Shown here: piece after piece, positions 42,128-52,158 of the stretch
How the letters are laid out: the number at the start of each line of letters is the position of its first letter
Numbering within the stretch: the first letter of the stretch is position 1
NCBI GenBank assembly: GCA_015065785.1
Contig: SVPR01000012.1
Location: 1 to 64,000 of the forward strand
DNA: 64,000 nt
DNA from: Oscillospiraceae bacterium
Lineage (GTDB): Bacteria; Bacillota; Clostridia; Oscillospirales; Acutalibacteraceae
Direction: 5' to 3'
Position numbers and translations under genes: made by a program
Notes under the pieces: model-generated
Seen by the model: only the letters and a program-made list of their open reading frames with translations
The model's database searches: none
Told to the model about the DNA's origin: nothing

Positions 42128-45100
42128 TCAGAATAATGACATCTGGTCACTTTCAGGTAAATTACCGAAAGCGCCACATTTTCTGAGAATTTCGATTGTT
42201 GATTTACCTGCTCTTGCACGGTCTTCGAAATCTTCAATTGAAGAGAATTCCGGACCACCGTCATTTCTTGCATTTGCAAGTGCTTCTGCAGCAGCATCGC
42301 CTACACCAGGTAATGCGGCAAACGGCATTCTTATTTTTCCGTTTTCAGGCACATAAGAATGGGCAGTAGATTTATAAATATCAATAGGTAAAAATTCTAC
42401 ACCACGAGCCATAGCCTCGTGAACAATCATCATAATTGTTTGCCTGTCCTTTTCAACATTCGAAGCTGTGCCCTCTTTAACCTTTGCTTCAATTGATTTA
42501 AGAAGCATTTTAACTGCATCTTTACCCTTTGACATTGACTCTGCATCAACATCACCGCCACGAACTGTGAGATATGCACAGTAATATTCAAGCTTATAAT
42601 AAATCTTGAACCACGCAAGTCTTAATGATGCAATAATATATGCAGCGGCGTGAGCCTTAGGGAACATATATTGAATTTTATCGCAAGACTCAATATACCA
42701 CGCAGGAACATCATGAGATTTCATAATCTCAATCATTTCAGGGGTTAAGTACTTATTTTTTTTACGAACAGTTTCCATTATATTAAACGCATCTTTTGGC
42801 TCAAGACCACAGTGCATTAAGTAAACCATAATACTGTCACGAGTACCTATAACCTCTGAAATTGTACAAGTACCTGCCTTAATAAGCTCCTGAGCATTGC
42901 CAAGCCACACATCAGTACCGTGTGAAAGACCTGCAATCTGAATAAGGTCAGCAAAGGTCTGTGGTTTTGCTTCAAGAAGCATTCCCTTTGTAAAGTCAGT
43001 ACCCATTTCAGGAATGGAAAGTGTACCGGTAGGCCATAAAATATCTTCTTCAGTAACACCTAACGGTGCCGGTGAAGTACAAAGCTCGTAAAGCTTTCGG
43101 TCACTTATATCAATATCCATAACATCTACACCGGTCAAGTCATAAAGGTGCTTGTAAATTGTAGGAACATCGTGCCCAAGTTCGTCAAGCTTTAAAAGTG
43201 TATCGTGCATTGAGTTGAAGTCAAAGTGCGTTGTAATAATACCCTTTGAACCATCCTCAGCTGGATGCTGAACAGGTGTAAAATCTTCAACATCATAAGT
43301 ATTAGGAACAACAACCATACCACCGGGGTGCTGACCGGTTGTTCTTTTAACACCCGTACAGCCTAAAGTAAGACGGTCAATTTCAGCCTTTGTATAAGTA
43401 AGCCCACGCTCATCGAGATATTTTTTAACATAACCATAAGCAGTTTTTTCAGCAACACCTGAAATTGTACCTGCTTTAAACACATGGGTTTTGCCGAATA
43501 AATCTTCAGTATACCTGTGTGACTGGCTCTGATATTCACCTGCAAAGTTAAGGTCGATATCAGGTGATTTATCACCAAAGAAGCCTAAGAATGTTTCAAA
43601 TGGAATTTCGTGACCATCTCTTACCAATGGTTCACCACATTCAGGACAATTTTTAGGTGGTAAATCGAAGCCCGAACCAACTTCACCGTGCAGGAAAAAT
43701 TCTGTATAACGGCATTTTGGACAACGGTAATGTGGCTGAAGTGGGTTAACCTCTGAAATACCAGCCATAATAGCAACGAAAGAAGAACCAACAGAACCAC
43801 GGGAACCGACATAATAACCACATTCTTCTGAATGCTTAACAAGAAGTCTTGCAATCATATAAAGACCGGCGAAACCGTTCTTAATAATTGACTGTAGCTC
43901 TTTTTCAAGTCGTTCTGAAACAACCTCAGGTAAATCGTCACCGTACCATTCTCTTGCTCTTTCCCAACAGAACTTTGTTAAATCTTCTTCTGCACCCTTT
44001 ACATCAGGGTTGAAAGTACCCTGTGGAATTGGCAAGATACCAGGTTCAATCATATCTGCAATTAAGTTTGTATTTGTAATAACAACCTCTTTTGCGGTTT
44101 CTTCACCGAGATATGCAAAATCTTCGAGCATCTCTTTAGTTGTTTTAAAGTAAAGCGGTGCCTGATTGTCAGCATCTTTATACCCTTGCCCTGCTTGTAA
44201 AATTGCTCTGAATTTTGAGTCACCCTCATTTAAGAAGTGAACATCACCGGTAGCAACAGTTTTCTTACCTAATTTATCACCTAACGCGATAATTTCACGG
44301 TTGATTTGCTCTAAATCTTCAAAAGAGTTTACTCTGTCATACTCTTCGTCATTTTTAGCAATCATAAAGCTGTTGTTACCGTTTGGTTGAATTTCAAGGT
44401 AATCATAAAATTCTGCAATTTTTATAAGCTCTTCAGGGCTTTTTCGTTCAAGAAATGCTTTATAAAGCTCGCCTGCTTCACAAGCACTACCAATAATTAA
44501 GCCCTCGCGTAATTCTTCTATAAGGCTTTTCGGCATTCTTGGTCTTTTGTAGAAATAATCTAAATTAGATGCCGAAATAAGCTTATAAAGATTTTTTAAA
44601 CCAACCTTATTTTTAACAAGTAAAATGCAGTGGTAGCTCTGAGATTTTTTGATTTCTTCTGCATCTTTTTTAGTGCCATCTGAATTGTAGTCATCCACAA
44701 GATAGCATTCACAGCCATAAATGATTTTGAAATCTGTTCCCCTTGCGGTGTTACAAGCTTCAGGGAATGCTTGTACGCAACCGTGGTCGGTAATAGCAAT
44801 TGCCTTGTGACCCCAGCTCATTGCTCGTTTAACTAATGACTTTGCACTGCTCATTGCATCCATTGCTGACATATTGGTATGAAGATGAAGCTCTACTCTT
44901 TTCTCTTCTGCATCGTCAGTAGTTTCAAATTTCTGAACTGTTGACATTGCTCTCGGACGGATTATGTAATCCTTTTTATAATCGTCGTAAATAATAGTAC
45001 CACGAATTATAACTGTTAAACCATCTTTGAGTTTTGTTTTAAGTGATTCTAAATTTTCTTTTTCATCAAAGAATTTTACACCATAAGAATAAGTGTAGTC

Positions 45101-45853
45101 TGTTATATTAAATTCAAGAATAAGACGCTTGCCGTCTTTAGTTTCTTTACTTTCTAATTTAAAGACATCGCCCCATACAACAACCTCACCATCTTCAGGT
45201 GAAATTTCTTTCATATTAACAGGGTCTTTTTTAATTGCATTACCAAAAATTGGTGTTGCAGTTTCTAAGTAAAGAGGAATGCCTTCAATAATTCTTCTTT
45301 CTTTTGGCTGAGATAAATCTACAACAGGATTATTTTCTGCATCTATCTCTTCTTGCCTTTTAAGAAAATCTTCTAAATTACTGTTTTCACCCTCAAGCTG
45401 AACTGTAATTCTACGATTGAAATGCTCAAAAATATAATTCTCTAAAAATGTATCTGCAGCAGCATTTTTACAAATATCACAGCCACCTGCTAAGAATTTA
45501 ATAGTCAGAACATCATCCTCAAATGTATATTCTGAATTATCTAAAAAACCGTTTGTTTGCGGAACATTTACCTTTAAAACCTTTAAAAGCATAGGGAAAC
45601 AGCTATATTCTAATGCTTCGGGCGGTAAGGTAAAATTAAATTCAACTGTCTTAAATCTTAATGCAATTTTGACTTCATTTGCAGTTGCCTTAAGACACAT
45701 AATATTTTTAAATTCTTTAAAATGAAGATTTGCAGTAAGCTTTAAATCTTCCTTATGTATATACAGGTCAGAGAATGTTGTATCCTTCAACATATCCCTG
45801 TATTTCGGTTCGCTTATATACTCACCGAACACATCTAAAAATAAATTGCTCAT
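42128..45853 (-). CDS. polC: DNA polymerase III PolC-type alpha subunit, lacking the exonuclease domain
   Basis: 1241 residues without interruption. An N-terminal domain (1-200) is followed by an OB fold (about 220-300) and a PHP domain with ELHLHTN, ITDHG, YGCE, SYHC and ATGDVHF. Polymerase motifs include SPDIDLNFAGEYQ (catalytic Asps at 765-767), a zinc motif CPKC...CPEC (711-739), and C-terminal helix-hairpin-helix LPGVGDAAAEAL. The terminal QMSLF (1237-1241) fits a sliding-clamp-binding motif. In standard PolC (about 1430-1450 residues), a DEDDh 3'-5' exonuclease of about 190 residues interrupts the PHP domain. Here YGCECYLVDD (379-388) joins SYHCILL (406-412) by a charged 17-residue linker, and no DxExTG motif exists. 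The ATG overlaps the ispG stop. Confidence 0.96.
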   Translation of the reverse strand: MSNLFLDVFGEYISEPKYRDMLKDTTFSDLYIHKEDLKLTANLHFKEFKNIMCLKATANEVKIALRFKTVEFNFTLPPEALEYSCFPMLLKVLKVNVPQTNGFLDNSEYTFEDDVLTIKFLAGGCDICKNAAADTFLENYIFEHFNRRITVQLEGENSNLEDFLKRQEEIDAENNPVVDLSQPKERRIIEGIPLYLETATPIFGNAIKKDPVNMKEISPEDGEVVVWGDVFKLESKETKDGKRLILEFNITDYTYSYGVKFFDEKENLESLKTKLKDGLTVIIRGTIIYDDYKKDYIIRPRAMSTVQKFETTDDAEEKRVELHLHTNMSAMDAMSSAKSLVKRAMSWGHKAIAITDHGCVQAFPEACNTARGTDFKIIYGCECYLVDDYNSDGTKKDAEEIKKSQSYHCILLVKNKVGLKNLYKLISASNLDYFYKRPRMPKSLIEELREGLIIGSACEAGELYKAFLERKSPEELIKIAEFYDYLEIQPNGNNSFMIAKNDEEYDRVNSFEDLEQINREIIALGDKLGKKTVATGDVHFLNEGDSKFRAILQAGQGYKDADNQAPLYFKTTKEMLEDFAYLGEETAKEVVITNTNLIADMIEPGILPIPQGTFNPDVKGAEEDLTKFCWERAREWYGDDLPEVVSERLEKELQSIIKNGFAGLYMIARLLVKHSEECGYYVGSRGSVGSSFVAIMAGISEVNPLQPHYRCPKCRYTEFFLHGEVGSGFDLPPKNCPECGEPLVRDGHEIPFETFLGFFGDKSPDIDLNFAGEYQSQSHRYTEDLFGKTHVFKAGTISGVAEKTAYGYVKKYLDERGLTYTKAEIDRLTLGCTGVKRTTGQHPGGMVVVPNTYDVEDFTPVQHPAEDGSKGIITTHFDFNSMHDTLLKLDELGHDVPTIYKHLYDLTGVDVMDIDISDRKLYELCTSPAPLGVTEEDILWPTGTLSIPEMGTDFTKGMLLEAKPQTFADLIQIAGLSHGTDVWLGNAQELIKAGTCTISEVIGTRDSIMVYLMHCGLEPKDAFNIMETVRKKNKYLTPEMIEIMKSHDVPAWYIESCDKIQYMFPKAHAAAYIIASLRLAWFKIYYKLEYYCAYLTVRGGDVDAESMSKGKDAVKMLLKSIEAKVKEGTASNVEKDRQTIMMIVHEAMARGVEFLPIDIYKSTAHSYVPENGKIRMPFAALPGVGDAAAEALANARNDGGPEFSSIEDFEDRARAGKSTIEILRKCGAFGNLPESDQMSLF

Positions 45854-46899
45854 ATTTTCTCAATTTCCTTTAACAATTCACTAACAATATCTTTTTCTTC
45901 TACTTTTCTCAATATTTCACCCTTTTTAAATATGAGACCAACTCCGTCGCCACCTGCGACGCCTATATCAGCTTCTTTTGCTTCACCGGGGCCATTCACC
46001 GCACAGCCCATCACTGCAATTTTAATCGGCTTTTTAATATCTTTTACAGCATCTTCTACTTTATTTGCAAGTGAAACTAAATCAATTTTTGTTCTGCCAC
46101 AAGTGGGGCAAGAAACAATTCTTGGTGTTTCAACTCTTAATTCAAGTGCTTTTAAAATATCGAAGCCTGCATACACTTCCTTAATTGGTGTATCTGTAAT
46201 CGAAACACGGATTGTGTCACCAATTCCATCTAAAAGAAGCGAGCCAATACCAATTGAAGATTTAATTAAAGAGCCACGCTCGGTACCAGCTTCAGTAACG
46301 CCTAAATGTAAAGGATAGTCGCATTTTTGGGCAACTAATTTATATGCCTTGACCATTTTGGTTACATCTGATGACTTAATAGAAACAACTGTATCGTAAA
46401 ACTCGCATTTTTCAAGAAGTGCTATATGTCTGAATGCACTTTCAGCCATTGCTTCAGGTGTTGCACCACCGTATTTTTTTAGTAAATCTTTTTCTACAGA
46501 GCCTGAATTAACGCCAATTCTTATTGGAACTTGTTTTTTTGCACAAGCATTGGCAACCTTTTCAACATTAGAAAAATCGCCAATATTACCGGGGTTAATT
46601 CTGATTTTATCTACCCCTGCTTCAAGACTTTCTAAAGCAAGCTTATAATCAAAGTGAATATCTGCAACAAGCGGTACATTGGTATTTTCTTTTAACTTTC
46701 CTAACACCTTAACCGCATCAGAATTCGGAACAGCCATTCTGACAATTTCACAACCCGCTTTTTCTAAAGCTAAAGTTTGTTCTAAATTCTTCTCGTAATC
46801 TTCAGCGGGTGCATTAAGCATAGATTGAACTAACACAGGCGCACCGCCACCGATTACCTTGTTACCGATTTTAACTTGTCTTGAAGCTCGCTTATTCAT
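45850..46899 (-). CDS. ispG: 4-hydroxy-3-methylbut-2-en-1-yl diphosphate synthase
   Basis: A 349-residue iron-sulfur enzyme of the MEP isoprenoid pathway that converts MEcPP to HMBPP. VQSMLNAPAEDY, ADIHFDYKLAL and RINPGNIG are TIM-barrel signatures. CPTCGRTKIDL and MGCAVNGPGEAKEADIG carry the three Cys and the Glu that hold the [4Fe-4S] cluster. The length suits the two-domain bacterial form. It lies 14 bases after rseP and overlaps polC by 4 bases. Confidence 0.97.
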   Translation of the reverse strand: MNKRASRQVKIGNKVIGGGAPVLVQSMLNAPAEDYEKNLEQTLALEKAGCEIVRMAVPNSDAVKVLGKLKENTNVPLVADIHFDYKLALESLEAGVDKIRINPGNIGDFSNVEKVANACAKKQVPIRIGVNSGSVEKDLLKKYGGATPEAMAESAFRHIALLEKCEFYDTVVSIKSSDVTKMVKAYKLVAQKCDYPLHLGVTEAGTERGSLIKSSIGIGSLLLDGIGDTIRVSITDTPIKEVYAGFDILKALELRVETPRIVSCPTCGRTKIDLVSLANKVEDAVKDIKKPIKIAVMGCAVNGPGEAKEADIGVAGGDGVGLIFKKGEILRKVEEKDIVSELLKEIEKI

Positions 46900-46913: not shown

Positions 46914-47999
46914 CTAAAAAACTTTTACAATATCACTGATTGAAACAACCAACATAAATAAGAGCAATAACACTAAACCTACTGTGTGAATAATACCCTC
47001 TTTTTTAGGGCTTATTGGCTTTCTTCTTATCATTTCAATAAATATAAAGAACAATCTGCCACCGTCAAGCGCCGGAACAGGAAGAAGGTTAAACACACCA
47101 ACATTTATTGTTATATATGAAAGAAGTGTTAAAGCGGTAAACAACTTATCTTTTGCGGTTGGACCTTGTGCAGTTGAGTCTGCAATTGCAGAAATTGTAC
47201 CAATTGGTCCTGAAACATCCTTCATTCCGTATTTGCCTGTGCAAAGGTCAACTAAACTCAAACGCACCATCTGAACAATAGAAGCTGAATCGAGAACAGA
47301 ATTTTTTAGTACATTTAAAAATGTATGCTCTTCACCAATAATATAAAAATCCTGCTCAACATACATTTTGCCATCAAGCTCAAATTGTCTGAACTGAACA
47401 TCTTTAAGCTCTACCTTTTTGCCATCACGAATAACAGTTAAATTGAGCTTATTGTCAGTATCTCGAACCATATTAAAACCAATACCGCGACTTGAATAAA
47501 CATGAGTATCGTTAATTTTAATAATTTCGTCGCCAGCCTGAAGACCATATTGCGAGCTGACAGCATTCTCGTCAAAGCTGTGAATAACTCTTGTACCTAC
47601 AAGGTTTTGCATAGAAATACAGACTGCAACAACAATAATGCCCAATATTAAATTAAGAATAGCACCTGCCGCAACGATTATAAATCTCTGATACGGCTTT
47701 TTCTTATTAAATGCTCTGTCATCATCACTTTCTGAGTCCTCGCCCTCCATACTAACGAAGCCACCAATAGGAAAAAGACGAAGTGCATATTGTGTTTCGC
47801 CTATCTTCTTTTTAAAAATTGCCGGACCCATACCGAGTGCAAATTCATTAACCCTTACTTTGAATAACTTTGCAAAAAAGAAATGACCGAACTCGTGAAT
47901 AGCAATAATTACACCAAAAAGCAAAATTGCTACTAAATAGGGCCAGACATTACCCCAGACACTTGCAATACTAAGAGTATTTATTGAAAACACCTCCAA
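46914..47999 (-). CDS. rseP: Site-2 zinc metalloprotease RseP family
   Basis: A 361-residue intramembrane protease that cleaves regulatory membrane substrates. The zinc motif HEFGH (about 35-39) lies in the first membrane helix. A PDZ domain (about 130-210) has YGLQAGDEIIKIND, and VPALDGGRLFF near residue 315 is the third-ligand LDG motif. Four membrane helices are seen. The start is awkward: TTG at 47999 falls in the GGAGG itself; a normal ribosome-binding distance would point to an in-frame ATA codon six codons in. It is 6 bases after dxr. Confidence 0.95.
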   Translation of the reverse strand: MEVFSINTLSIASVWGNVWPYLVAILLFGVIIAIHEFGHFFFAKLFKVRVNEFALGMGPAIFKKKIGETQYALRLFPIGGFVSMEGEDSESDDDRAFNKKKPYQRFIIVAAGAILNLILGIIVVAVCISMQNLVGTRVIHSFDENAVSSQYGLQAGDEIIKINDTHVYSSRGIGFNMVRDTDNKLNLTVIRDGKKVELKDVQFRQFELDGKMYVEQDFYIIGEEHTFLNVLKNSVLDSASIVQMVRLSLVDLCTGKYGMKDVSGPIGTISAIADSTAQGPTAKDKLFTALTLLSYITINVGVFNLLPVPALDGGRLFFIFIEMIRRKPISPKKEGIIHTVGLVLLLLFMLVVSISDIVKVF

Positions 48000-48005
48000 A
48001 AAAAT

Positions 48006-49154
48006 TTAAGAGCTTGCTAATTTTCTAACAGTTTCACGCATTAAAATATCAGTATTATAAACATCCTCTAAAACATAGTCCTGTTTATTTACTAAAGTAG
48101 CTGATGCTTCTTTAATAAGTCTTGGAATATCGTTAAAAGATATTTTATCTTGCCTGAAGAGAAGATTTGCCTCTTCATTAGCACAATTTACTGCAGCAGG
48201 CATTAAACCGCCTGCTTTGATTGCAGTTTTACAAATATCCATACAGGGAAAGTTTTCGTAATCGGGTTTAAAGAATGTAAGGTTACCTACTTCCCACAAA
48301 TCGAGTTGCTTTTCAGGTGACTCGTATCTTTCAGGATAAGTCAATGCAAATTGTATTGGCAAACGCATATCCGGATGACCTAACTGTGCTATAACTGAGT
48401 TATCATCATACTCAATAAGCGAATGAACAATACTTTCTCTATGAACAACAATGTCAATCATATCGGGTGAAACATTGAAAAGCCAAACTGCTTCGATTAA
48501 TTCAAGCCCTTTGTTGAACATTGTAGCACTGTCTATGGTAATTTTTTGTCCCATTGACCAGCTGGGATGCTTTAAAGCATCCTTTAAAGTAACATTCTTT
48601 AATTCTTCTTTTGTTTTGCCAAAAAATGGGCCACCGGAAGCGGTTAAAATAATTCTTTTTAACGCTTTATTGCTGGGCTTCCCTAAAAGGCATTGAAAAA
48701 TTGCAGAATGCTCACTGTCAACAGGAAGAATAGAAACACCTTTTTTCTTTGCAGCATCAGTAACAAGTCTGCCACCAGCTACGAGTGTTTCTTTATTAGC
48801 AAGAGCAATTGTTTTACCTGCTTCGATTGCGGCGAGTGTAGGGCCTAAGCCTGCCATACCAACAACTGAGTTAAGAGTAATTTCACCCTTTGCCTCAGCA
48901 CCGCAAGCGGTTACACCCTCTACACCCGAAAGAACCTTTGTTGATGTATCTTTTACTCTCACTTTTAAATCTGCCGCCGCTTTTTCATCTACTAATGCGG
49001 CGTATTCGGGTTTAAATTCTCTGATTTGTTGTTCAATTTTTTCAACATCTGAGAAAGCGGCAAGAGCCTCGACCTTATAATTTCGGGCTCTCGCAACATC
49101 TAAACTCTGAACACCTATTGAACCAGTTGAACCTAATAAATTAATAGTTTTCAT
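48006..49154 (-). CDS. dxr: 1-deoxy-D-xylulose 5-phosphate reductoisomerase
   Basis: A 382-residue enzyme for the first committed MEP step (DXP to MEP with NADPH). LGSTGSIGVQSLDV is the nucleotide-binding start. LPVDSEHSAIFQCL holds catalytic metal residues, and TASGGPFFGKTKEEL and HPSWSMGQKITIDSATMFNKGLE are family markers. The length is normal. It is in the cdsA-dxr-rseP-ispG-polC operon. Confidence 0.97.
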   Translation of the reverse strand: MKTINLLGSTGSIGVQSLDVARARNYKVEALAAFSDVEKIEQQIREFKPEYAALVDEKAAADLKVRVKDTSTKVLSGVEGVTACGAEAKGEITLNSVVGMAGLGPTLAAIEAGKTIALANKETLVAGGRLVTDAAKKKGVSILPVDSEHSAIFQCLLGKPSNKALKRIILTASGGPFFGKTKEELKNVTLKDALKHPSWSMGQKITIDSATMFNKGLELIEAVWLFNVSPDMIDIVVHRESIVHSLIEYDDNSVIAQLGHPDMRLPIQFALTYPERYESPEKQLDLWEVGNLTFFKPDYENFPCMDICKTAIKAGGLMPAAVNCANEEANLLFRQDKISFNDIPRLIKEASATLVNKQDYVLEDVYNTDILMRETVRKLASS

Positions 49155-49180
49155 ATTACACTGTCACTTTATATTTTATC

Positions 49181-50020
49181 TTAAAAAATATTGATTATGT
49201 AAACTAACGAATAAAGTACCGGTAAAACAAATAATAAGCTGTCGCATCTGTCCATTATTCCACCGTGACCGGGAAGAAGCTTGCCAAAATCCTTAATACC
49301 AAAGTTTCTTTTGATTGTAGAAGCTGCAAGGTCACCAAACATACTGATAACAGAAAGACAAAGGCTCATTATTACTACTGAAGCATAAGTTAAGCCTGTT
49401 CCACCCTCAAAGAAGAATTTTTTAAATACAAAAAGTAACGCTACATTTAAAAGAACTGCACCTACAACGCCACCTATTGCACCCTCTACACTCTTTTTAG
49501 GACTGATTTTAGGGCAAAGCTTGTGTTTACCGAGCTTACTACCAACAAAATAAGCAAACACATCAGTAAGCCAGGCAGAGAAGCAAGCGAAAAGAATGAG
49601 GAAAATGCCGTCTATCTTGGTATATGATGAAAAACGCTCATTTATGTCGCGGAACACAAGGAATAATGAGAACGAATAAGGAATAGCTACCGAAGCGAAA
49701 ATTGCAGTAACTGCTTCCTCAAACTTTGTTTTCTCAAATTGCACAAGCATAAATATAAATATTAAAACTACATAAATGCCACCAACAGCCGCAACAGGTA
49801 CACTGATATTAAAATGTACTAAAATAGGAATTGCAACTGAAAGTGCTAAGCTTAAAACCATTATCGGTATATTTTTTAATGATACAGCTTTTTCAACCTC
49901 ATAAACCGCAATTGCAGACATAAGTGACAAAACAATCGGGAAGAAAATTGTATCCATTAAAAACAGACAACCTATAAAAAGAATTGCACAAATTACACCG
50001 GTTATTATTCTCTGTTTCAT
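49181..50020 (-). CDS. cdsA: Phosphatidate cytidylyltransferase
   Basis: A 279-residue integral membrane enzyme that makes CDP-diacylglycerol from phosphatidate and CTP. It has about eight hydrophobic segments. The C-terminal signature [29 protein letters not shown] (about 234-262) contains the conserved S-x-x-K-R, KD and GHGG-x-x-DRxD. It lies 26 bases upstream of dxr. Confidence 0.96.
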
Positions 50021-50063
50021 TTAAAAACCCACTCTCAAAATCAGAAACTATAATTTCTAAAAA

Positions 50064-50789
50064 TCAGACACCACCAAAGCGTCTGTGACGCTTCTGGTAA
50101 TCTTCTAAAACCGCATCTACATCGTCGGTTGTAAAATCAGGCCACAAAATATCTGAAAACCAGAATTCTGAATATGCAGACTGCCATGTGAGAAAATTAG
50201 AAAGTCTGTATTCACCGCTTGGTCTTACAATAATATCCGGGTCAGGCTGACCGCTTGTGTAGATGTTTTGTGAAATTAAATCTTCGTTAATATCATCTAT
50301 AGCAATTTCGCCACCTTTAACCTTTTCGGCAATAGCTTTTACAGAGTGAACTAATTCTGCTCTGCCACCATAGTTTAAAGCGATATTAACTGTGATTTTA
50401 TTATAATTTTCGGTTTCTTTTTCCGCTTTTTCTATAAGTTCTAAAAGCTCACTGGGAAGACCGTTTCTTTCGCCAATGAATTTAAGCTTCATCTGACGCT
50501 CTTTGTTTTCTTCTAAACGAGTATCGCCTTCCATTAAATAATCAATGAATAAATCCATAAGGCCATCGACTTCTTCTTGTGGTCGTGACCAATTTTCAGT
50601 TGAAAAAGCATAGAAAGTTACGCACTCAATGCCTAAATCGGCACAGTACTCACCTATTTTTTTGAACACCTTAGCACCGGCAATATGACCTTCACCGCGT
50701 TTAAGACCACGATTTTTTGCCCATCTGCCGTTACCGTCCATAATAAAGCCTATATGCCTTGGTAAAACTTCAAACTTTTTATTTTCCAT
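50064..50789 (-). CDS. uppS: Undecaprenyl diphosphate synthase (isoprenyl transferase)
   Basis: A 241-residue cis-prenyltransferase making the lipid carrier for cell-wall synthesis. GFIMDGNGRWAKNRG carries the catalytic Asp. FYAFSTENWSRP and NIALNYGGRAELV, plus RPSGEYRLSNFLTWQSAYSEFWF and LWPDF, are conserved. The ATG at 50789 is 7 bases after the frr stop and has no strong ribosome binding site, so translation may depend on frr; a GTG inside frr is a less likely start. Confidence 0.96.
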   Translation of the reverse strand: MENKKFEVLPRHIGFIMDGNGRWAKNRGLKRGEGHIAGAKVFKKIGEYCADLGIECVTFYAFSTENWSRPQEEVDGLMDLFIDYLMEGDTRLEENKERQMKLKFIGERNGLPSELLELIEKAEKETENYNKITVNIALNYGGRAELVHSVKAIAEKVKGGEIAIDDINEDLISQNIYTSGQPDPDIIVRPSGEYRLSNFLTWQSAYSEFWFSDILWPDFTTDDVDAVLEDYQKRHRRFGGV

Positions 50790-50796
50790 AACTAAA

Positions 50797-51351
50797 TCAG
50801 ATTTCAAGAATTTCTGCTGATTTTGCAGCACAGATTTCGTCGATTTTCTTTACATATTCGTCAGTAATTTTCTGAAGCTTTTCTTCAGCTTTCTTCTGGT
50901 CATCTTCTGTGATTTCAGAATTCTTTTTCATTGTCTTAACCTTTTCGATTGAATCACGACGAATCTGACGAACTGCAACCTTGCTGTCTTCAGCAATTTT
51001 TGAAACATCTTTGCTTAATTGTTTTCTTCTTTCTTCTGTAAGTGCAGGGAAAACAAGACGGATTGTGTGACCATCGTTTGATGGGTTAATGCCGATATCT
51101 GAAGCTAAAATAGCTTTTTCAATAAGACCTAAAGCACTACCATCCCAAGGTTGAATTGCAAGGATTCTTGCTTCTGGAACAGAAATAGCAGCCATTTGGT
51201 TAATAGGTGTTTGTGTTCCATAGTAATCAACTAAAACCTTGTCAAGAATAGCAGCGTTTGCTCTGCCTGCTCTGATTGAGTTGTACTCATATTTTAATGA
51301 AGAAATTGATTTTTCCATTCTTTCTTTTGTGTTAGCGTAAATTGTTTCCAT
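50797..51351 (-). CDS. frr: Ribosome recycling factor
   Basis: A 184-residue factor that splits post-termination ribosomes with EF-G. SIRAGRANAAILDKVLVDYYGTQTP and LTEERRKQLSKDVSKIAEDSKVAVRQIRRD are invariant blocks. The length matches the family (about 185). It is 40 bases downstream of pyrH. Confidence 0.97.
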   Translation of the reverse strand: METIYANTKERMEKSISSLKYEYNSIRAGRANAAILDKVLVDYYGTQTPINQMAAISVPEARILAIQPWDGSALGLIEKAILASDIGINPSNDGHTIRLVFPALTEERRKQLSKDVSKIAEDSKVAVRQIRRDSIEKVKTMKKNSEITEDDQKKAEEKLQKITDEYVKKIDEICAAKSAEILEI

Positions 51352-51391
51352 AATAAAAGCCTCCGTAAATTTATTTTATGTATTTTATTGA

Positions 51392-52096
51392 TTATTTAAC
51401 AACTGTTCCTGTATTTTCACCGCACATTGCTTTACCAATATTTTCGGGGTTATTAAGGTTAAATACAAGAATAGGAATGTTATTTTCCTGACAGATAGCA
51501 GCTGCGGCTGTATCCATAACTGCAAGGTGTCTTTCTAAAAGCTCGTTGTGAGAAATCTCTGTGAATTTAACTGCATCACTGAACTTGTTAGGGTCTTTGT
51601 CGTAAACACCGTCAACATTTGTTGCTTTTAAGAGAACATCTGCACCAATCTGAGCAGCTCTTAAAGCAGCGCCTGAATCAGTTGAAAAGAATGGGTTACC
51701 TGTACCGCCTGCAAAGATAACTAATCTGCCCTTTTCTAAATGTCTTACAGCACTGTCTTTATTAAATGTTTCAACAACACCGGTAATCTGAACTGCAGAC
51801 TGAACACGAGCGTCAATGCCTAACTGTAAAAATGTTTCTTGTAATGCTAAAGAATTCATAACAGTAGCAAGCATACCAATGCTGTCAGCACGAGTTCTGT
51901 CCATATCGCCACTTGAACGACCACGCCAGAAGTTACCGCCACCAACAACAATGCCAACTTCTGCACCAGCATCTACAACAGTTTTAATAGCCGAACAGAT
52001 ATTGTTCATAACATTAAAATCGAAGCCGTGACCTTTTTCACCGGAAAGCACTTCACCGCTTAATTTGAGAAGCACTCTTTTGTACTTTAAGTCCAT
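51392..52096 (-). CDS. pyrH: UMP kinase
   Basis: A 234-residue amino-acid-kinase-fold enzyme that phosphorylates [43 protein letters not shown] and [15 protein letters not shown] are all present. The ATG at 52096 has AGGAG 8 bases before it, and an upstream in-frame codon (52117) lies before that site. It heads the pyrH-frr-uppS-cdsA-dxr-rseP-ispG-polC cluster. Confidence 0.97.
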
Positions 52097-52158
52097 AAAT
52101 ACAACTCCTTTTTGCACTTGTTTTTATATGACAAATGCACCTAAATATTCCACATTAC

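Follow-up and report, generated by a model that had tools for sequence, protein, structure and literature searches.

A clade of Clostridia with PolC-type DNA polymerase III lacking the exonuclease insert, and a probable role of the PHP site in proofreading

The window analysed here is a stretch of 64,000 nucleotides, with no N letters, from the genome of an Oscillospiraceae bacterium (assembly GCA_015065785.1, contig SVPR01000012.1). The genome is a 2.24 Mb draft in 37 contigs that is 83.55% complete, and for this reason absences from it carry little weight. The minus strand of the window holds a same-strand run of genes, pyrH-frr-uppS-cdsA-like-dxr-rseP-ispG-polC, with polC as the last gene. 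We take this run to be the usual chromosomal surroundings of polC, and the window gene is therefore regarded as the orthologue and not as a spare copy; a search for a second PolC in the window genome, at the completeness given above, found none. The genes of the run and the parts of the polC product are located as follows.

46914..52117, minus strand: rseP, dxr, a cdsA-like gene (below cut-off), uppS, frr and pyrH, upstream of polC
45850..46899, minus strand: ispG, directly upstream of polC in the same run
42128..45853, minus strand: polC, DNA polymerase III alpha subunit without exonuclease (exo-less), 1241 aa, a single open frame with an ATG start
45335..45577, minus strand: PolC N-terminal domain II (residues 93-173), a weak Pfam match of 24 bits, below the curated cut-off of 26.3
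44909..45268, minus strand: OB region (residues ~196-315), inferred from the alignment with 3f2b, without a Pfam hit
44690..44902, minus strand: first half of the PHP domain (residues 318-388) with metal ligands H323, H325, D332, H357 and E382, from Pfam and alignment
44639..44689, minus strand: 17-residue linker (residues 389-405) in the slot of the DEDDh exonuclease of other PolCs, from alignment
44078..44638, minus strand: second half of the PHP domain (residues 406 to ~592) with metal ligands H408, C458, D537 and H539, from alignment
43637..43723, minus strand: presumed zinc motif CPKC...CPEC (residues 711-739), a sequence motif
43544..43561, minus strand: presumed catalytic motif DIDLNF (residues 765-770), from alignment
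42131..42145, minus strand: clamp-binding motif QMSLF (residues 1237-1241) at the C-terminus of the protein

The encoded protein is a PolC-type DNA polymerase III from which the exonuclease hallmark is absent. It scored above the cut-offs of two NCBIfam PolC equivalogs (NF001688, 1454.7 bits versus 873; TIGR01405, 1327.2 bits versus 1043.45) and could be aligned with Geobacillus PolC (3f2b) across residues 210-1241. Pfam returned an unbroken PHP domain at residues 321-483, the polymerase and finger domains and HhH_6 at residues 1151-1234, together with N-terminal domain II below its curated cut-off; no match to RNase_T (DEDDh) was obtained in the protein. A preliminary description of the locus had reported a single 1241-residue frame in which a 17-residue linker stands in place of the whole exonuclease domain and all other parts look intact, and re-reading of the sequence bore this out. 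YGCECYLVDD (379-388) is followed by 17 residues (389-405) and then by SYHCILL (406-412), and the aligned slot is short. A motif scan of the protein gave 0 DxExTG and 0 H[NS]xx[FY]D motifs, and [FVIL]DxExTG occurs in none of the six frames of the whole window. The remaining parts of a PolC are present, namely the OB region (by alignment), all nine PHP ligands (H323 H325 D332 H357 E382 H408 C458 D537 H539), DIDLNF, CPKC...CPEC and QMSLF. The published consensus of the clamp-binding motif is QL[S/D]LF (PMC3919608).

Forty genomes of relatives were searched, 22 of which, the window genome included, belong to the same genus. The PolC match crosses the junction without an insert in 21 of the 22, one of them (G003) with a TAG inside a fragmentary PolC frame; from the remaining genome, G004, the C-terminal part of PolC alone is assembled, which makes it uninformative. 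An assembly error, a strain-specific deletion or sister genomes with the full exonuclease had been named beforehand as the cases that would undo the claim. The draft state of the window genome, with its 37 contigs, leaves some room for an artefact. On the other hand, no sister genome with the insert was found in the genus, and the records of named relatives stem, by their titles, from several isolate series; the nearest of these (best 80 of 198) are uncultured Oscillospiraceae or Clostridia, many from the gut of sheep, deer, cattle and goat, together with Clostridiales bacterium DTU089. Since the absence of the exonuclease is common to the genus, assembly error and strain deletion are excluded for practical purposes, with next to no probability left to them. 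The loss is real and clade-wide, being shared by the genus as far as the genus is assembled. Elsewhere in the family, exo-less PolCs are found in G024 and G198, and G022, G023, G181, G215, G232, G340 and G370 have long PolCs in frames of 1445-1486 aa.

The PHP region (residues 310-480) then served as query in a search of 393 genomes of the class Clostridia. At least 62 of these gave a single unbroken PHP match, which corresponds to an exo-less PolC; the unbroken matches sit in frames of 449-1323 aa, and their scores are clearly separate from those of the broken matches of exo-bearing PolCs. The C-terminal half of PolC was found in at least 363 of the 393 genomes. With G024 and G025 added, exo-less PolC occurs in at least 14 families by family code, including every one of the 22 genomes sampled from family f23 and seven of nine in family f29, the other two being unresolved.

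Trees of residues 420-1234 were used to count the changes of the exonuclease state. For FastTree the 207 aligned rows were thinned to 104 by leaving out near-copies, both mini-PolCs described below and the majority of the named exo-bearing rows; row L031 fills 16% of the columns only. This tree gave 12 changes, and IQ-TREE (LG+G4, quick) with 76 rows gave 10; in both trees at least eight changes are forced by starred branches, and the window genus is placed among the exo-bearing relatives L026 and L059. By themselves the trees are compatible with gain or loss. The position of the insert is identical in the solved PolC 9qpc and in exo-bearing Clostridia, which makes repeated loss the natural reading, and as 10-12 changes are needed, eight of them forced, we regard repeated loss of the exonuclease as likely.

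Two further kinds of PolC gene were encountered in the class. G392 and G364 each carry an extra short PolC-like gene beside another PolC match (L185 in G392, frame from 1171, plus strand; L186 in G364, minus strand; 768-781 aa). These mini-PolCs are without the N-terminal and OB region, the exonuclease, the C-terminal HhH and the clamp motif, and their PHP site is degenerate (HHDHEPANH) while the catalytic Asp pair is retained; they are possibly an accessory PolC. Genome G301 contains two exo-less PolC genes (on C20 and C243; L173 and L174), which might be the result of binning of two strains.

Exo-bearing PolCs have 192-221 residues in the aligned slot, the value of 192 coming from a truncated row, versus 12-22 in exo-less PolCs, and both flanking PHP strands are retained around the linkers of the latter. 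The linkers were also viewed with a patch derived from DnaE1 in mind; several of them resemble a trimmed C-terminal flank of the exonuclease insert (xDxK before YH), which suits a deletion. By this comparison, the lineage has cut the DEDDh insert cleanly from the PHP loop. The corresponding loop of M. tuberculosis DnaE1 borders the groove, or primer path, into the PHP exonuclease site, and in Geobacillus PolC it is the loop into which the DEDD exonuclease is inserted (PMC5636811). The spacing between E382 and H408 is 25 residues in the window PolC and 13-25 in the exo-less rows; the equivalent loop has 20 residues in the DnaE1 of the window genome and 18-22 in the DnaE1s examined. Because the insert occupies the loop that lines the primer path in M. 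tuberculosis DnaE1, its removal would leave a DnaE-like loop, of which the length is observed and the consequence is what we infer.

The nine PHP ligands (HHDHEHCDH) are intact in all 53 exo-less and all 51 exo-bearing PolCs of the tree set. In a wider set that includes near-copies, 86 of 88 exo-less PolCs have the ligands intact and the mini-PolCs are the two that do not; of 117 exo-bearing rows, 116 are intact and one is truncated, and two fragments are without the region. The equivalent of D537 is an Asp in the 53 exo-less and 51 exo-bearing rows, and both 3f2b and 9qpc read ATGNVH, with Asn where the window PolC has D537. The D226N variant of M. tuberculosis DnaE1 has no exonuclease activity left, and for Geobacillus PolC one mutated PHP ligand and no PHP exonuclease activity are reported (PMC5636811); by our reading of the motif order, D226 would be the counterpart of D537. 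Residue 436, perhaps the equivalent of the primer-path Lys of the M. tuberculosis enzyme, is basic (K/R) in 48 of 51 exo-less and 49 of 51 exo-bearing rows and hence does not discriminate between them.

Exo-bearing Clostridia have the site just as complete; its conservation is thus independent of whether the exonuclease was lost and could instead reflect a structural or other catalytic role. The mean entropy of PHP columns was 1.21 and 1.26 in exo-less versus 1.07 and 1.15 in exo-bearing rows, and that of the polymerase core 1.29 versus 1.12; the PHP domain is thus slightly more variable in exo-less rows, as is the core, and there is no sign of a tightened PHP constraint after the loss. On balance, the best explanation that sequence comparison offers, and one we hold to be somewhat more probable than its opposite, is that the PHP site proofreads in exo-less PolC. 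It would edit misincorporated 3' ends by analogy with the PHP site of mycobacterial DnaE1, and the exonuclease may have been lost because PHP editing, by PolC itself and by the DnaE1 present beside it, made it superfluous. The repeated change of the exonuclease state fits a redundant domain.

Replacement of the domain in trans by a separate DnaQ-like exonuclease was assessed with a genome-wide RNase_T search, a loose first pass that can miss very divergent members. At E <= 0.001, no match was present in 38 of 61 exo-less genomes, among them G204, a single contig that is 100% complete, and 23 had a match, that of G252 being very weak. A match besides PolC was found in 16 of 40 exo-bearing control genomes, which were hand-chosen from the listed hits. 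By these hand counts, standalone RNase_T proteins are not enriched class-wide in exo-less genomes, neither overall (23/61 versus 16/40, Fisher p = 0.84) nor at 70 bits or more (13/61 versus 7/40, Fisher p = 0.80). Within the genus, strong standalone matches of 197-359 aa in nine of the 22 genomes (G004-G009, G012, G017 and G020; the match in G013 is more divergent) speak for replacement, as does a standalone RNase_T protein of 177 aa in the independently exo-less G025. Against this, only a weaker, divergent type of match is present in G018 (the closest relative, 97% complete), G016 (96%), G019 and G011 (both 95%) and the window genome, and the strong-type gene of G009 directly precedes a beta-galactosidase gene. 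The window genome has one divergent RNase_T protein of 307 aa, which we take to be ERI-1/KapD-like, and proteins of the same size and similar score are also found in exo-bearing relatives. In a FastTree tree of 95 exonuclease domains, which has stars on 18 of its 92 inner branches and in which long branches come together, the standalone exonucleases mostly fall outside the PolC exonuclease domains, with L225 as a weak exception; on the same placement, the idea that they represent the excised PolC domain found no support. Replacement in trans is accordingly improbable, and the search for a separate DnaQ-like protein, which the preliminary description had put forward, yielded the 307-aa protein and no class-wide enrichment.

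Two of the strong-type genes could be viewed with their surroundings (L283:5046-5663 in G009 and L284:4794-5411 in G007). Each encodes a standalone DnaQ-like exonuclease of 205 aa and is followed by a gene for a protein of about 1000 aa, which in G009 is the beta-galactosidase; the exonuclease is patchy across the window genus.

A further possibility is a genuine reduction of proofreading that the cell tolerates, mismatch repair (MutS) then taking over the work. The 38 of 61 exo-less genomes that are without an RNase_T replacement would agree with this, as would the MutS-type genes found in 39 of 40 genomes searched, the window genome included, but the exo-bearing relatives in that search have MutS just as well, and the PHP site is fully retained. 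Moreover, exo-less PolC spans entire families, such as f23, with which a lasting strong mutator state is hard to reconcile, and we therefore consider reduced proofreading unlikely.

A different explanation places the burden on DnaE1, which would either do the bulk of replication with its own PHP editing or edit PolC errors in trans, and PolC could for that reason lose its exonuclease. The window genome has one DnaE (1174 aa frame, contig C15) with an intact PHP site, here labelled DnaE1 following PMC3919608 for Clostridia, and with both genes found the window organism fits the type of Clostridia with exo-less PolC plus DnaE1. Timinskas et al. (PMC3919608) asked whether DnaE1 might be the main replicase, and the idea gains some support from the DnaE1 proteins themselves. 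Of 50 exo-less genomes searched 49 gave a match, the 30 best-scoring loci and the window genome's own DnaE1 were examined, and the PHP site was intact in 31 of 31. In addition, 30 of the 393 class genomes were without a match to the C-terminal half of PolC at 1e-100 among the matches listed. In at least one of these (G222) PolC is only fragmented, and some have split genes; the 30 also include genomes that are almost complete and have just one PHP match, for example in family f22, and some lineages thus seem able to do without PolC. Families f22, f75 and f84 are among those with genomes that gave no PolC match at this threshold, and G033 (98% complete) has a DnaE match only, with no PolC match and no RNase_T protein.

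The strand bias of genes points the other way. It was determined from 20 stretches of 20 kb per genome in two exo-less and two exo-bearing genomes that are not sister pairs. The leading-strand coding share was 84% in G204 and 85% in G373, exo-less single-contig genomes from separate clades, versus 70% in G385 and 57% in G032, which are exo-bearing (62% and 48% by GC-skew arcs). The amplitude of the GC skew was 0.135 and 0.138 versus 0.053 and 0.050, respectively, and both GC and A/T skew are strong in G204 and G373. Strong leading-strand gene bias accompanies PolC (PMC3814617). The stronger bias in the two exo-less genomes, in this comparison of two versus two, argues against DnaE1 as main replicase, which we judge to be a rather unlikely explanation, and the loss of the exonuclease is not tied to a weaker replication asymmetry in these two. 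G032 has a full-length PolC (1467 aa frame) yet a near-absent coding-strand bias, unexpected for a PolC bacterium.

The preliminary description had left a separate DnaQ-like protein, the PHP domain and reduced proofreading side by side; the PHP domain is now the best supported of these, the DnaQ-like protein found no support, without enrichment in the class, and reduced proofreading is a less likely candidate. The observations can tentatively be read together, in a combination that is plausible but that we would not quite call probable. Accordingly worded with caution, a sizeable part of the Clostridia would have shed the DEDDh exonuclease, probably at least eight times, two C-family polymerases would both be PHP-editing, many of the genomes would manage without a DEDDh exonuclease of this family, and PHP editing alone would suffice for strongly strand-asymmetric replication by PolC. 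The exonuclease would under the same reading be losable in Clostridia and not in Bacilli, because one PHP ligand is damaged in the Bacilli-type PolC, of which that of Geobacillus is an example.

As domain deletions that arose in nature, exo-less PolCs bear on the question of which active site proofreads in bacteria with PolC and DnaE1. Most notable among the new results, many exo-less genomes are without a detectable DEDDh exonuclease of this family, and for that reason they are good material for a direct test; the genomes without detectable RNase_T offer a clean test case for PHP-only proofreading in a PolC replicase.

Whether such a PolC had been described before was left open by the preliminary description, and it had: exo-less PolC was reported in Clostridia and Negativicutes in 2013/14 by Timinskas et al. 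(Nucleic Acids Res, PMC3919608). According to that paper, 6% of PolCs are without the Exo insertion, and all of these belong to Clostridia or Negativicutes save for one extra copy in Thermotogae; 16% of PolC plus DnaE1 systems are also without it, and exo-less PolC is paired with DnaE1, not DnaE3. A follow-up appeared in 2026 (PMC12926913). The available part of PMC3774996 does not mention exo-less PolC, and no further account of a natural exo-less PolC was recognised in the titles and abstract starts of the literature matches listed. The window PolC is of the kind already known, with the same absence of Exo and the same pairing with DnaE1; the window genus is not named in the available text of PMC3919608. 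New relative to that text are the counts of changes on trees, the survey of whole genomes for RNase_T and the examination of the PHP site in exo-less members. In 2013/14 no PolC plus DnaE1 system appeared to have been experimentally characterised (PMC3919608).

In the Geobacillus PolC structure 3f2b the exonuclease is absent from the structure (PMC3919608), and in the 9qpc chain it is present. With these canonical PolCs (Geobacillus kaustophilus 3f2b; 9qpc) the window PolC shares the OB region, the PHP domain, the polymerase core and HhH. It differs in having a linker where canonical PolC carries a DEDDh exonuclease in the PHP loop, and in having Asp (D537) at the PHP ligand that is Asn in 3f2b and 9qpc. 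With M. tuberculosis DnaE1, of which we take 5lew and 7pu7 to be structures, it has in common a complete nine-ligand PHP site and a loop into which no exonuclease is inserted. The mycobacterial enzyme is of the DnaE type, its loop of 29 residues (in the numbering of the paper) is longer than that of the window PolC, and PHP editing, which for the window PolC is predicted from sequence, has there been measured (PMC5636811).
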